Virus record (IMG/VR): IMGVR_UViG_3300035698_010492
Coordinates: 1 to 21,267 of that record
Origin: a virus
Strand: one strand, 5' to 3'
DNA length: 21,267 nucleotides
The notes below the pieces were generated by a model that saw only the letters and a program-made list of their open reading frames with translations, was not told the origin of the DNA and did not search any database. The number at the start of each line of letters is the position of its first letter. Within the stretch, counting starts at the first letter, position 1. Made by a program: the position numbers and the translations under genes. Shown one piece after another: positions 3,147 to 13,900 of this stretch.

Positions 3147-3956
3147 TTATTCATCTTTTTTCTCCTCAGGATCTAAAGGTTTTATATCAGCAAGTTTTTC
3201 TTCTACATCTGTGTTTATTATCTCTTGTTGGTCATTATCAGGATATTGTTCTCACATTACACTATCATCAGTCATAACTGATTGATCTGATAGTAATGCT
3301 TTCTCTAAATCTACTGATAGAGGAGCGTATTTTGATAACAATAGCTTCAATACAGTCTTTTGTGCCATAGTGTCAAATTCATCTTTCCATAATCAATATC
3401 ATTTTTTATATGATTGGGAGAACTTCATTCAATGTTTCTTCATATCATCTACTGTCATATACATAGTCTTCTCAAATCATTCATTCAGTTGGAAATACGC
3501 AGCATATCATATAGGATCTCACTCGGCAGGAATATCAAAGTCAAACACAAATCAAGTAAGAGGATTGTTACCAGTAAGCTGTCATGGATAGATAGCACAT
3601 ACAGAGATATGCTTAAATCTTCATGATCTTTGGGCGAGCTGGATAAATCATTTATACCCTATTTGGAATTGTGCCTGTACTCAACTTTTAGAGTTGTATG
3701 GTACAATATACGCAAATCATAGATTAGGATTGATAGGCAACTTTATCGAAGCTGCTGTTACTGCTGCCATAAATACTGATTGAGGATCTGCTTTTTTCAA
3801 CAAATCATTTTGTGATACTATAGTCATTACAGTAGTAAGAAACGATCAGGCATTCTCCTTTAATAGATCATCGAATTTCTTTTTGATCGCATCAGTCTTT
3901 AATAGAGCGATAGCATCTTTCTTCTCTACAATTGGAGTCTCTTCTGTTGCTGTCAT
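3147..3956 (-). CDS. recT: RecT-family single-strand annealing protein
   Basis: A 269-aa protein, normal length for RecT. The core at about residues 57-110 has the family's characteristic run: PQSVFMAAVTAASIKLPI, then NPNLGFAYIVPYN, then VQAQFQIGYKGFIQLAQRSG and FKHI. A later WKDEFDTMAQKTVLKLLLSKY segment and an acidic, Lys-rich tail are also typical. By hand count about 15 of its 17 glycines are TGA, including those in NLGFAY and YKGF. RecT proteins anneal and exchange single strands behind a partner exonuclease, here the PD-(D/E)XK protein downstream. The start is 2 nt after the stop of a 36-aa peptide gene, suggesting translational coupling near the promoter-proximal end of the leftward block. 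Confidence 0.95.
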
Positions 3957-7869: not shown

Positions 7870-9990
7870 ATGGCAAAAGGAAAATCATCATACAAAAAAA
7901 CATGACCTGAGTGAGATGAGATTGTTGTCGAAGAAGTTATCACAGAGGAATGAATAAACAAACAAAAGAAACTCAGAGAGAAGCTATCTAATAAAAAATC
8001 AACAGGAGATGATGGTTGATATAGTATATGAGAGCTTCATTGAAAGACTTTTACGGAAGAGTCGATCAAAGATGAAGATGTAGATGTAGATAAGATAGTA
8101 GCAACAGTAATAAAAGAGCTTAAAAAGACCGAAGACTCTCTGGGCGAAGTTCTATCTACTTATGCTGATGTCAAAAAATGATACCTCGATCTAGAAAATA
8201 GATCAGATCCTTTCTATGTAGATTACAATCTTCTCTATAATAATGTCGATATGCTTATGGCGTTATCGTATAGTAATGAGATGAAAGTTATGTTTACTGG
8301 AACAGATGAGTCTGATATGGACAATAGTAATATCATCACCAAGACAGCTGAGTATGATGCTAGAGATGAGTTATGACTTGACCTATTAGAATATGAGCTA
8401 TGAATGGATAAATACCTATGATGAGTCGCTGTTGCTGAACGAGATTGATGGAACGAGTATACAAATGCTCCTATCGCTATTGTTATGCCAGTAGAACATT
8501 ATAGACCTGATCCTGATGGACGATGACACGCTGATAAATATAGACGACATGGATGTCATTGAAAGATGACTAAACAGCAGATGATAGATCCATGAAACTT
8601 CTTCAATATAGATGATGTTGTCGATACAGTATGGAACGATGACAAAACAAATACCATGAGTGACAATTGATCCAATATATCACTACAAGCTGATCAATCA
8701 ACAGATGAGTCTGCTTATTTTGTAGTATACAATCACTTCGGAACTAAATCAGATTGAACAAAATATCTTGCTACACTTGCCAACTCATGATCTCTATTGA
8801 TCAGATATGTAGAGCTGGACTACAAGATATGAGGAAAACCTGTATTCCCATTATCGCTAGACTTTTGGAAACCTAAAAAATGATTTCCTATGGGGATCAA
8901 ACCATATGATATTACTAATAGAAAACAGAGAGTACTATCATTGATCCTTAATCTAGCAGTCAAACAATCAGTAAGATCATCACTCGGTAACCATATCATA
9001 GTAGATGAGAAAGCTGTAAAGAATAAAGCACAACTATCTCAGCTATCAGAGTTTCCTGAGGTAATACTTGTTGATACAAATGGATGAGAAAAGAATGTAA
9101 ACAATATAGTAACAGAACTCCAAAGAAGCTGAGTACCACAAGATAATATCACAGTAGAGAATAGGATCAAACAGCTCAACTATGAAGAGACAAGTATATG
9201 ACCTAATCAATTGTGACTATCTCCTGAATGAAATCAAACAGCTACTGAGATAAGAGACAACGCAACTAATGCTAATGTCAGACTCTCTCTATCGACAAGA
9301 GTCGCTCAGATATTCTATAAAGACTTCCGAAGAAAATGGCTCATGATGTATCAGTACCATTTCCCAAAGGATTGAAAGAAGCAAGTTGTTATCTCTAGAG
9401 AGTATGGTGATAAGTATATGACATTTGAGCATAAGTATCTTACATTTAGCTGAGATCCTCATATCAAGATAGTGGCAAAGACTGAGTTTGAGATGAACAG
9501 CAGAAAACTATTCTCTAATCATGTTGTCCTACACTCATATATAGAAAAACTTGCCATGATGCCTTATGTTCCTTTGGAAGTAAGAATGTCTATGAGGAAA
9601 GCATTGAGACTTCTATGATACCCTGAGGATGAGATCCTAAGATATGTGAAAGAGTCTGTCGAAGAGATGGAAGCAAAAGCACAACTATATCTCCTTAATG
9701 ATAACGAGAAATTGGATGAGCTAGTTCCTAATCAGATAGATGAACACCATGAAGACTATATCGAAGTATATAGACAAGCGAAGCCAACAGAAGCTACAAG
9801 ATTTGCTGTATTGGATAGGATCAGGATGTTGAAACAGAGGAAGAAAAAAGATAGAGAAGCAGAGAAACAACAAGTCCTTGACAACGGACAATGAAACGCT
9901 AATACTAATAGTATGTCTAATCAAATGACAGCTGATATGATCAGCAAAGGTGGGCAAGAATGATCAACTCTGAAAGATATTCAGATGTAA
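7870..9990 (+). CDS. Portal protein
   Basis: A 706-aa protein directly downstream of the terminase genes. That length fits the large portals of podoviruses (P22/N4-like) better than the roughly 450-500 aa of siphophages. It is mainly helical and charged. Portal-like segments include an N-terminal Glu/Lys region, YLDLENRSDPFYVDYNLLY (about 107-125), a middle domain with TNANVRLSLSTRVAQIFYKD followed by FRRKWLMMYQYHF (about 465-500), and a C-terminal coiled tail (MLKQRKKKDREAEKQQ). By hand count about 30 of 46 glycines are TGA. Family assignment rests on position, size and this general pattern rather than on a diagnostic motif. The portal forms the dodecameric ring through which DNA is packaged and ejected. 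Confidence 0.75.
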
Positions 9991-10021: not shown

Positions 10022-10477
10022 ATGTGAGAAACACAACCTAAATTTGAACCTACAGAAGAACAAAAACAAATGGCATATAAGATGCTAGAAGAACAAAGAG
10101 TAAATTCTTTAGATGTAGTCGAAAAAACTCCTCTCAAAGAGATGGTCGATATGTGATTGTTATCTCAATCAGATATTACTACATTTAGAACAGCTCATGT
10201 ATCTTGATACCTAAAAAGTATTCTAGAGATCTGTGTGACTATACCAAACATCATCGAAACTAATCAACAAGTATTGGTAGAAATAGAGGACGGACTATCT
10301 AAGTTTGAACTAGAACCTAGTCCTGATGATGAGAATTTTAGTATATGGATGAGTCTTATGTGACACAGAAGAGCAACAATAAACCAAATCAATAACAAAA
10401 AAGAAGAGATAGAGAATAGAAAATCAGAACTAGAAAACTATAAAGATATATTAGTACAGTTCGCAGATCTTATTTAA
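10022..10477 (+). CDS. Head-region protein of unknown function
   Basis: A 151-aa, mostly helical, acidic protein. Its second codon is TGA (Met-Gly-Glu), so no standard-code start would be called here. The C-terminal third (INQINNKKEEIENRKSELEN) is a probable coiled coil. It lies 31 nt after the portal gene and 17 nt before the next gene. No family was recognised. The location among head genes suggests a minor head, portal-associated or assembly-chaperone protein. Confidence 0.65.
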
Positions 10478-10494: not shown

Positions 10495-11310
10495 ATGGGG
10501 GGAGAGAAAGTAGAACATGTAATAGCAGGAGTAGGGAAGTTATGATTTGATATGGAATTGGATGGGATGAAAGAATATGTAGCTAAAACCACATGAATGT
10601 CTAAGATCGATCAAGTTCTTAACTTCTACTGAATACCTTATAGCAGAAAAAATAATTACAAAGCATATCTCAGATACAAACCAAGAGAAAGTCATTGTGC
10701 GATAATCAATGACTATTTTCTCTGATTGTTTAGAAGTGGTAGAGAATGATTTGATGATCCTGATACTGATTATAGTAACTTCGACTATCAAACACTCCAA
10801 CAAGAATATAATGACAAACATCCTGAGGATGAACAAACAGGACTAGATCTTCATGTAAATTATGGAGCGTTTACAAATAATGAGAAAGAGCATCTAGCAG
10901 CAATCAAAAAGGAACAAGCAGGACAAAGCAATGAGGAGATGAAACTTGTTACCGATGTCCTGAAATGAATGATGACTGAAATGAATGAGATTAAAAAAAC
11001 AATAGGTCTTTTATCACCTAATACACCTATACAAAATGACAACAGCAAGACCACTACACCACATGAAATTAAAGAAACTTGAAGCTCTATGGGAGAAAGG
11101 GAAGACGGAACAGCTAGCAGCTGAGGAGATTGAAGCACTAAAGCAGTTGTTGGATGAGGAGAATGATCCGGAGAGAGCTGATCAAAGGATAGTAACAAAA
11201 ACCTTAGAAGTGAACATGCGATTGGACTCGATCAATCCACAGCACAATGATTGATCATCCCAAGCAACATTGCCGAAAGACTTGGAACTGATGAATGAAA
11301 GTGAGAGTAA
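10495..11310 (+). CDS. Head-region protein with TGA-coded Gly/Ser-rich tail
   Basis: In code 25 this frame gives 271 aa. Residues 1-180 are ordinary protein (starts MGGEKVEHVIAGVGKLGF; includes QVLNFYGIPYSRKNNYKAYL and an acidic helical part, IKKEQAGQSNEEMKLVTDVL). From about residue 190 the composition changes to a Gly/Ser-rich linker (GSTKAVVGGGEGSGESGSK), with many of its glycines TGA, then a short end, GLIIPSNIAERLGTDEGKGE. The region from 11036 is also open in the +1 frame, which encodes a convincing Glu/Lys-rich helical sequence. The Gly-rich tail could therefore be real, or could be a by-product of UGA not stopping this frame. Function is unknown; it lies in the head module upstream of the scaffold. 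Confidence 0.65.
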
Positions 11311-11794
11311 TGATGAAATAATCGAACAAGAAGAAGATGGAGAAGAATTAGAAGAAAATAATCCATCAGAGGAAGAAGTATCGACTATAACAGAGTATGA
11401 CCTAGAAAGACTAAATGCTATCTATGAGATGCTACCTCTTATCAAAGAATGTCATAGGATCTGTATGTTTATGTTAGAGAATAGATGATTTAACAACGCA
11501 TACAAATGATATATGGATAGAGATAGTGAAACTCGCAGATCAGCAGAACTCCATGTAGTGTTTGATTTTTATGGGATCGCACATGATCAATGGAAGAATG
11601 TCGAGCTATTACAATCAATAGAGTATTCCAACAGAGATCATATCGACACTATATGTAAGTATCTTGCTATAGAGGGAATAGGATTTGATAGAGAAGACTT
11701 TATCTACAAACCAAAAAACAATGGCGTCAAAAGCGAAGAAATCTCGAGAGAAAGCAAAGCAAAAACTACCTGAGCAGCTGGTTGGAGACCTTAG
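11291..11794 (+). CDS. Acidic head-region protein (start may lie upstream at 11036)
   Basis: From the ATG at 11291 the protein is 167 aa and overlaps the previous gene by 20 nt. It has a very acidic N-terminus (DEIIEQEEDGEELEENN), then a helical domain (YDLERLNAIYEMLPLIKECH, MLENRGFNNAYKGYMDRDSE) and FDFYGIAHDQWKNVELLQSI. The frame stays open upstream to 11006. ATGs at 11036 and 11063 would add a helical, coiled-coil-like N-terminus (KLKKLEALWEKGKTEQLAAE) but overlap the previous gene by about 250-275 nt. The 3' end overlaps the next gene by 74 nt; its last 25 residues include a TGA-Gly and may be a read-on tail. No family was recognised. Confidence 0.6.
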
Positions 11795-12095
11795 AACACT
11801 ACAAGAGAGTGAGTGATGGAAGTTTATATCGGCACAGCTACATGATAAAGCACAAGATATAAAGCAGTTGATATGGACTCCATCTACTGATCAGACATTG
11901 AGATATAATGTAGATCATCTACTCAAAGAAAGACTCGCTGTGATATACATATTTATGAACTTACCAATGGACTCTCTATCAGTATTTGAAGCTATACTAT
12001 CATCGGATGAGGAGAACAAGAAACCGATAGTAGATAGACTCAAAGAAATGGACGAGAAATTTGCTGAGGAACTACTACGCTATGTCAAGCTATAA
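11721..12095 (+). CDS. Small helical head-region protein
   Basis: A 124-aa protein with a basic N-terminus (MASKAKKSREKAKQK), then LRTLQESEGWKFISAQLHDK and LLKERLAVIYIFMNLPMDSL, and a Glu/Lys-rich helical C-terminus. The E-S-E-G-W-K-x-I element, with Gly as TGA, resembles small helical proteins found near portal and capsid genes in several phages. I cannot name the family. It starts 74 nt before the previous gene ends, in another frame. It is the last gene before the structured RNA at 12105-12193. Confidence 0.68.
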
Positions 12096-12247: not shown

Positions 12248-12883
12248 ATGACAGTTGATCAATTGCTATCATCAGGCGTAAATGATGAAGAGCTGGACAC
12301 AGGCGTAAATGTGTTAGACGAAGAAGAAACTGATTTGGACAATGAAGAAATGGAAGATGACGAAGAAGAAACTAATGATTGAGATCAATCCCAAAAGAAA
12401 GATCGAAAGAAGAAGTATCATTCTACTGTCACCATCCAAAATAGGAGAATATCACAGCTAGAGAAAGAATTGGCTAATAAAGCTAAGGAAGATGATCTCA
12501 GCGACGATGATCTCGCATTACTTCAAGAGAAGTATGATGAACAAGATCTCAATGTTATCAAGAAGCTGATCAAAAAAGAAGCTAGAAACTTGATCGACAA
12601 TGACAAAAGTTCTTCACTACAACAAAGGGAGTTATGAATATTCTTCAAAAAACATCCTGAAATTACAGAACCTGAACTCAAACATGTAAAGGATCTACAA
12701 AATCAATATGGATATAGTCTTGAAAAAGCGTACTCAGTATTGTTTGGTAGAAATGATACAGAAGACAAGAGATCAAACCGTTCTGTCAATAGCTTTGGAT
12801 GAGATGCTAAATGATGATCAAAGTCGCAAGACTGAGGGAATGATGAAGCGTACAATGATATGGTAAAGAACTATACTAAATAA
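12248..12883 (+). CDS. Capsid scaffolding protein
   Basis: A 211-aa protein directly upstream of the major capsid gene, the usual place for a scaffold. The N-terminus is highly acidic (LDEEETDLDNEEMEDDEEE, about residues 23-41), followed by a basic KKDRKKKYHSTVTIQNRRIS and a long helical/coiled-coil stretch (ISQLEKELANKAKEDDLSDD to LNVIKKLIKKEARNLI). The Gly/Ser/Asn-rich tail (NSFGGDAKGGSKSQDGG) leads to a short C-terminal helix, as in scaffolds whose C-terminus binds capsid subunits. About half of its 12 glycines are TGA. Identification rests on position and composition; scaffold sequences are poorly conserved. Confidence 0.78.
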
Positions 12884-12937: not shown

Positions 12938-13900
12938 ATGATGAATTATAGTGGATTAAAATCCAGCTCATCTACTTCTGACAAGACTTTTCTTGACAAG
13001 GTAGTTAGAAGAGTATTAGAAAATTTTGAACCAAATCTTATCTTCAACCAGTTTGGAGAAGCTCCTATCTCAGAAGTAGGTGCTGACAATATAGTTTGGG
13101 CTAAGTTTCCTGCTTTGACTTACAGTCCTGCTCAGGCAGAATTGATCGATGGAGTAACTCCAAACGATGTATCTTTCACAGCAGAAACAATCTCAGTACA
13201 ATCAAAACAATATGGAATGTATGTTATCCTTACTGACAAAGTAAAGTTGAAACAACTTTTCAATCTTTCTATGATTGTATCTGAAATTCTTGGAGACAAT
13301 ATGTCTAGAATATGTGATAATGTTATTCAGAATGAAGTAACTGATAATGCTACAAATAGAGTATTGGCAGCTACAACAGCTGGTGGAACTAGAGCAGCAA
13401 ACAGAGCAGCTATCGGAGCTACAAACATTATGTTTACTTACGATATTGCTTGTGTTGCTACTAAATTGGCAGCAGCAAACGCTCCTAAATTCGCAGCAGG
13501 TGCTTATGGTGGAATACTTCACCCATTTGTATCTCACCGAATTAAAACAGAGTCTGGTGCTGGTGGATGGCTTCAAATCAAGCAGTATACTACTGCTGGA
13601 CAAGATGACATTTACAAAGGAGAAATCGGTATGATCCATGGTGTAAGAATTATGGAGTCTGCTAATGTAAAATCATACGCTTCTACTGTAACAGTATACC
13701 CATCTACTTTCTTTGGAAAAAGAGCTTATGGAGTATCTGAACTACAATCTATGGAAACAATTATACATGGATTTGGATCAGCTGGAACAGCTGATGCCTT
13801 GAACCAAAGAATGACAATAGGTGTGAAGAAATCATTTGCTCCTAAAATTCTTAATCAAGCATCTATAGTAGTGTTTGAATGTGCTGGAGCAGTCGTATAA
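12938..13900 (+). CDS. Major capsid protein, N4-gp56 family
   Basis: A 320-aa protein from the first ATG (another ATG follows at 12941; GTG 12908 is less likely). It follows the N4-gp56-type pattern: NFEPNLIFNQFGEAP near the N-terminus, VGADNIVWAKFPAL, ELIDGVTPNDVSFTAETISV, QSKQYGMYVILTDKV, NATNRVLAATTAGGT, ILHPFVSHRI, GEIGMIHGVRIMES, and C-terminal VYPSTFFGKRAYGVSEL with IHGFGSAGTADALNQRM. It builds the HK97-fold icosahedral shell with the scaffold encoded just upstream. It is the only large gene in the window without any in-frame TGA: all of about 26 glycines are GGA/GGT-type. That implies selection against the recoded codon in the most heavily translated late gene. Confidence 0.93.
   Translation: MMNYSGLKSSSSTSDKTFLDKVVRRVLENFEPNLIFNQFGEAPISEVGADNIVWAKFPALTYSPAQAELIDGVTPNDVSFTAETISVQSKQYGMYVILTDKVKLKQLFNLSMIVSEILGDNMSRICDNVIQNEVTDNATNRVLAATTAGGTRAANRAAIGATNIMFTYDIACVATKLAAANAPKFAAGAYGGILHPFVSHRIKTESGAGGWLQIKQYTTAGQDDIYKGEIGMIHGVRIMESANVKSYASTVTVYPSTFFGKRAYGVSELQSMETIIHGFGSAGTADALNQRMTIGVKKSFAPKILNQASIVVFECAGAVV

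Follow-up and report, generated by a model that had tools for sequence, protein, structure and literature searches.

Two head-module genes share 275 nt in the +1 phase in a phage that reads UGA as glycine, and the overlap looks selected

The window, by which we mean the whole stretch of DNA analysed, comprises positions 1 to 21,267 (21,267 nt) of the IMG/VR virus record IMGVR_UViG_3300035698_010492, taken as a single strand from 5′ to 3′. Its head module contains the following features:

7870-9990, plus strand: portal-position protein, 706 aa, conserved; putative role from gene order
10022-10477, plus strand: 'pre', a small conserved gene of 151 aa upstream of A
10495-11310, plus strand: gene A, 271 aa under genetic code 25; an open reading frame with homologues in 7 distinct genomes
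11008-11035, plus strand: putative leader of gene B, within gene A; AT-rich, G-poor, non-Shine-Dalgarno start context
11036-11794, plus strand: gene B, 252 aa under code 25, in the +1 frame; from its open reading frame, alignments, AlphaFold2 (AF2) model and start context
11036-11310, plus strand: apparent A/B dual-coding overlap of 275 nt, in which the wobble base of B is the first codon base of A
11721-12095, plus strand: gene C, 124 aa, the next small head-module gene, overlapping B in the +1 phase
11721-11794, plus strand: B/C overlap of 74 nt, +1 phase, with a single TGA in the B frame
12248-12883, plus strand: scaffold-position protein, 211 aa; putative role from gene order
12938-13900, plus strand: major capsid protein (PHROG 1357, major head protein, E 8.4e-34)

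The portal-position protein has no match in PHROGs or Pfam, and in the distant annotated relative MW202801, where the gene order is terminase, head-to-tail joining protein, two hypothetical proteins and capsid, it is the 'head to tail joining protein' that occupies the portal position. Elsewhere in the window, the minus strand encodes a RecT-family protein (3147-3956, E 1.6e-46) and an AAA/SMC-like ATPase (767-2086), the latter with a best Pfam E-value of 3e-8 that lies below the curated cut-off. The reading of UGA as glycine follows from alignments of the capsid and portal proteins, in which every conserved column facing an in-frame TGA is a glycine (6 capsid and 5 portal columns), as is characteristic of code 25. 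The codon is unevenly used: in the window the capsid gene specifies glycine by 25 GGN and no TGA codons and the portal gene by 13 GGN and 23 TGA, and TGA-free capsid genes also occur in the related loci L003, L005, L006 and L009. This suggests that the reassigned codon is avoided in the capsid gene, which is presumably highly expressed.

Given their position between portal and capsid, A and B presumably have a role in head assembly. Neither matched PHROGs or Pfam at the thresholds used, their homologues taken singly gave only isolated weak matches to PHROGs, sequence searches of the PDB gave no useful match, and a Foldseek search with the fold of B returned nothing with E below 0.001. The AF2 models are of low overall confidence (mean pLDDT 51 for A and 61 for B). 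In the model of A, an N-terminal helical domain (about residues 1-170) is followed by an acidic, Gly/Ser-rich tail that is predicted to be disordered (pLDDT about 30-42 over residues 171-271). B is made up of a conserved N-terminal helix with the pattern LHHMKxKKxExL...LTxxE, a charged linker and a C-terminal helical domain; in its model, residues 5-24 and 29-42 form helices, the linker is disordered and a more clearly defined domain begins at about residue 120. The non-overlapping parts of the two genes (10495-11035 of A and 11318-11794 of B) share a motif of the xxFYGI type (hhalign probability 43%, E 2.5e-4), and A and B may possibly be paralogues from an old duplication.

The preliminary description of this DNA had reported two frames open over about 275 nt at 11036-11310, and these coordinates are right; with TGA translated as Gly, the B frame is +1 to A, that is, one base 3′ of it. 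Within the overlap, TGA accounts for 9 of the roughly 90 codons in the A frame and for one in the B frame. Direct searches with A or B alone found no relatives, and neither did a terminase query; a DNA search of named phages and a tblastn search with the domain of B had no match, and tblastn with the capsid reached only distant phages at <30% identity. Relatives were recovered by means of capsid and portal queries and profiles; the profiles gathered 41 and 5 viral loci plus 2 genome loci. Profile scans of 46 records, the window included, detected A in 15 and B in 10. One of the B matches, in L012, is the A-like reading frame itself, and two contigs are duplicates, which leaves seven distinct genomes carrying both genes, some of them related to each other: the window, L002, L003, L004, L005, L008 and L009, the order in which values for the seven are given below.

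All seven of these UGA=Gly genomes keep the overlap, and in the same +1 phase. With the B starts chosen as described below, its length is 275, 320, 260, 164, 296, 308 and 176 nt (323 and 335 nt in L005 and L008 if the first ATG is taken), and the A frame contains 9, 8, 15, 4, 13, 12 and 6 TGA codons within it. The reading of two coding frames would have fallen had related genomes interrupted either of them by TAA or TAG across this interval; no such codon occurs in any of the seven. In standard-code relatives the profiles detected neither A nor B, and in the nine whose gene lists were inspected the interval is occupied by other genes.

For the beginning of B, the candidates had been 11036 and 11063, and a start-context model favours the former. 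The model is position-based, was trained on 76 starts with those of B and C excluded, and was compared with 1744 internal ATGs; the weight score of 2.7 at 11036 is matched by 1.6% of these, and ATG 11063 ranks at 44% of the internal ATGs in the window. The chosen B starts rank in the top 1.6, 0.6, 1.0, 0.8, 0.7 and 0.3% in the window, L002, L003, L005, L008 and L009, and L004, where the context is poor, ranks at 56%. In L005 and L008 the second ATG had been picked by alignment before the model existed, and the model concurs. No clear Shine-Dalgarno motif is present at the gene starts inspected in the window and L002-L009, that of B included. These genomes have a U-rich, TTTTAT-like element at about -25 to -15 and an A-rich, G-poor leader; TTTTAT itself stands upstream of 30 of 81 starts versus 2% of 497 internal ATGs.

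The start context bears on a highly unlikely alternative, in which B is made mainly by +1 ribosomal frameshifting out of A, as an A-B fusion resembling the products of tail-assembly chaperone genes. The +1 phase found in every one of the seven genomes is what such a mechanism would call for. However, in each of the seven a stop codon interrupts the B frame 18-99 nt before the chosen start, six of them have at that start an ATG in the context typical of their own genes, the overlap is much longer than a frameshift requires, and no shared slippery site stood out in the start contexts inspected. A frameshift pair is also recognized by a second frame that has no start of its own, and B has one. 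Since the upstream stop is so near, frameshifting would be confined to a short interval, where it might occur as a minor event; the start at 11036, together with the conserved N-terminal motif of B, makes independent initiation the preferred explanation.

At the next junction (11721-11794) the preliminary description had seen 'the same' with 74 nt of overlap. The length is correct and the phase is again +1, but hardly any UGA is involved (0-2 per genome, 1 in the window). The start of C in the window scores so well that only 0.7% of internal ATGs match it. For C in L003, L004 and L009 the model favours start sites downstream of the first ATG (L003:2785, L004:3180 and L009:4242), which would bring the B/C overlaps to about 65-98 nt. 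In L008 the B gene (L008:4108-4737) is missing the C-terminal tail by which B overlaps C in the remaining six genomes, and no B/C overlap exists there. C also overlaps the gene before it, once more in the +1 phase, in L010 (161 nt), L012 (161 nt), L011 (104 nt) and L021 (89 nt); profiles identify the preceding gene as a homologue of A in L010 and L012, and they detected no such homology in L011 and L021.

It had further been proposed that the loss of UGA as a stop makes such overlaps more common in general, and this found no support here. Among 204 adjacent same-strand pairs counted in a rough survey of 19 code-25 loci, 12 share at least 60 nt, and all 12 are A/B or B/C, that is, at one locus; in 9 standard-code loci, 2 of 81 pairs do so, both of them the same pair. 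The caller used for the census drops genes shorter than 90 aa or overlapped over half their length, and misses the B of L008 and others. The related statement, that the two frames could not both be open were UGA not sense, is true of the sequences as observed, each of which has 4-15 UGA codons in the A tail and would, with UGA as a stop, end 5-92 nt after the start of B. In principle it is too strong, because a UGA-free tail could be encoded with C in place of T at the wobble position.

Whether the A frame is held open can be judged against a null model in which the amino acids of B are fixed and its codons are redrawn from each genome's own codon use. The probability of an open A frame is then 0.0064, 0.0050, 0.0080, 0.0074, 0.0004, 0.0002 and 0.0026 in the seven genomes. 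When the codons are instead shuffled within the whole of B, the values become 0.062, 0.034, 0.0034, 0.024, 0.007, 0.0034 and 0.151, and with shuffling restricted to the overlap they are 0.32, 0.052, 0.0066, 0.59, 0.014, 0.005 and 0.28. The window alone is therefore a weak case by the overlap-only shuffle (P=0.32), and it is the pooled test over seven genomes that is strong: across 588 B codons, no TAA or TAG is observed in the A frame versus 30.9 expected from genome codon use (14.4 under the overlap-only shuffle), and TGA is enriched, with 66 observed versus 38.5 expected. Stops in the same frame of the control regions (A before the overlap, the rest of B, portal, capsid, scaffold and 'pre') occur at 1.04-1.19 of expectation. 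By this measure the A frame is selected and not a passive read-on tail. The A/C overlaps (P 0.05-0.50) and the B/C overlaps (P 0.047-0.19) are individually borderline or not significant.

Because the A frame lies one base upstream of B, the wobble base of B is the first base of the A codon, and its choice is biased by context. The preliminary description had suggested that one frame may shape the other, and had remarked that TGA in A often arises from a T followed by GAx in B; both points are borne out. More specifically, before GAx the B wobble base within the overlap is T at 61% and G at 24% of sites, versus 37% and 11% in the control, so that A acquires Gly in place of Arg. Where AAx or AGx follows, it is G at 57% of sites and T at none, versus 21% and 36% in the control, and A then has Glu where Lys or a stop would otherwise stand. 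In the other contexts of the overlap T falls to 9%. Taken genome by genome, the odds ratio exceeds 1 in all seven for both contexts, with p <0.05 in four for the GA shift and in five for the AA/AG shift.

The resulting A tail has, in comparison with redrawn codons, more acidic residues (116 versus 60) and glycines (99 versus 71) and fewer basic (59 versus 129) and aromatic ones (7 versus 35). Its net charge is -7, -8, -6, 0, -13, -16 and -7 in the seven genomes, L004 being the exception without net negative charge. Under the overlap-only shuffle, glycine at GA sites (92 versus 64.8) and acidic residues at AA/AG sites (71 versus 49.4) are still in excess, and since the effects persist there, a plain local base bias is no explanation. 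On this evidence, selection is acting on the composition of the A tail and not on openness alone.

The same data speak to the exceedingly improbable alternative that the wobble bias reflects an RNA or DNA element, or a local mutation bias, and not a second protein. Overall wobble composition is indeed unusual in the overlap (G 32% and T 17%, versus 14.5% and 32% in the rest of B), as such an element or bias could produce, but the dependence of the wobble base on the next codon and its survival under shuffling within the overlap both argue against it, as does folding around the B start, which is weakly structured in four genomes and nothing special in three, with no common pattern.

Rates of synonymous change, which the preliminary description had proposed to compare for both frames, turned out differently for the two. 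Codons were compared at residues identical in a pair of genomes, for 11 of the 21 possible pairs, which are not independent. In A, change is lowered over B: 94 of 294 codons differ in the tail versus 465 of 957 outside. In B, the expected drop within the overlap is absent (150/322, 0.466, versus 258/538, 0.480, in the rest of the gene), so that the more conserved of the two frames does not show the lowered synonymous divergence that is frequent, though not strictly required, in overlapping pairs. Codon use in the overlap is about equally unusual in both frames (-1.73 for the A tail and -1.60 for the head of B, versus about -1.30 outside), and thus favours neither frame as the older one. That synonymous change is lowered in the A tail and not in B indicates that B holds a specific sequence and A a composition, and constraint on B in the overlap is thus visible as base choice, not as rate. 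The A tail itself aligns poorly between genomes.

This poor alignment, the low complexity and variable length of the tail (overlaps of 164-320 nt) and the undiminished synonymous change in B are what would be anticipated if the tail were functionless, a neutral read-on past a lost UGA stop to the next chance TAA or TAG. Even so, that explanation is very unlikely: it does not account for the pooled absence of TAA and TAG from the A frame or for a composition shifted beyond mere openness, and read-on of this kind is not general, the 12 long overlaps of the code-25 census all being at this locus. Hardly credible is the converse possibility that only A is coding across the interval and that B starts near or after the stop of A, for example at ATG 11291. 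The first 90 or so residues of B are less conserved than its C-terminal domain, in keeping with a late start, but the B frame carries motifs within the overlap (by eye in the alignments, the LHHMKxKKxExL type in five of the seven genomes and the LTxxE type in all seven, more loosely in some), the context of ATG 11291 is poor, being equalled by 85% of internal ATGs, and the lowered synonymous change in A over the overlap is as if B were constrained there.

Two frames open in different phases, an overlap and a phase conserved among relatives, signs of selection on both frames, which together mark an overlapping gene pair, and a start context proper to B can all be established at the level of sequence, and the A/B overlap gives the impression of being real and under selection, not an accident. 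We consider it highly probable that A and B, each initiated separately, belong to one late head operon in phages with UGA=Gly, and that the tail of A has been selected for composition over the N-terminus of B. In this arrangement, the last 90 or so codons of A would be read over the first 90 or so of B, one base upstream, with B initiating at 11036 from its own non-Shine-Dalgarno leader inside A. The N-terminal helix of B would be conserved as a sequence, and for the tail of A only the composition would be under constraint (an open frame, acidic and Gly-rich, with little Lys, Arg, aromatics or Cys, and predicted disordered). Synonymous positions of B would be chosen accordingly, with T or G before GAx and G before AAx or AGx, and UGA=Gly would permit the use of xxT-GAx. 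Both proteins are probably made, presumably from one late mRNA; during head assembly the acidic A tail may act as a flexible linker or as a contact arm, and the overlap may couple the output of the two genes.

It is conceivable, if rather doubtful, that the reassigned stop was itself recruited for dual coding. Over acidic stretches the most frequent out-of-frame stop is xxT-GAx; read as glycine, it makes a disordered tail over the acidic N-terminus of B feasible and would have become a wanted residue in a Gly-rich, acidic tail, after which TAA and TAG would have been purged and TGA enriched. If this is true, the code change opened a coding architecture that is closed to standard-code relatives. 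The overlap itself (i) offers an internal, codon-level readout of a former stop acting as sense in a second frame, with TAA and TAG purged and TGA enriched, and (ii) opens to testing the effect of a code change on which gene overlaps are possible. A practical consequence concerns annotation: Prodigal caps same-strand overlaps at about 60 nt, and gene callers with such limits will truncate or drop one of the two genes, so that head-module proteins of recoded phages may be misannotated.

Known systems resemble the A/B pair in part. The gpG/gpGT genes of lambda also form two overlapping frames in a phage morphogenesis module, but they are a programmed frameshift pair, whereas B starts in a context of its own and its frame is interrupted by an upstream stop. 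In phiX174, which uses the standard code, E is nested in D and encodes a lysis protein, whereas A and B form a tail-to-head overlap of two head-module proteins. The likeness to D/E lies in base composition, since, according to PMC8227390, composition at the third position of one frame sets the residues of the other, with a Leu-rich E there and a Gly/Glu-rich A tail here. In its code the window is comparable to the code-25 phages of Gracilibacteria and Absconditabacteria, for which PMC10746230 describes UGA as Gly and dense in-frame TGA; the word 'overlap' is absent from its main text. A search confined largely to open papers, most of them seen as listings, found no report of such overlap in connection with reassigned UGA, Absconditabacteria or Gracilibacteria. 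The closest parallels are the long same-strand overlaps of prokaryotes and phages treated in PMC3887535 and PMC8227390, where phase 1 is the phase of most long overlaps and disorder is common in overlapping proteins. As in A/B, the downstream gene lies one base 3′ and the first base of one frame is the third of the other (cp13 in the review's terms). The difference is that in A/B one of the stops has changed its meaning, and that its triplet, far from being purged, is over-represented in the second frame.
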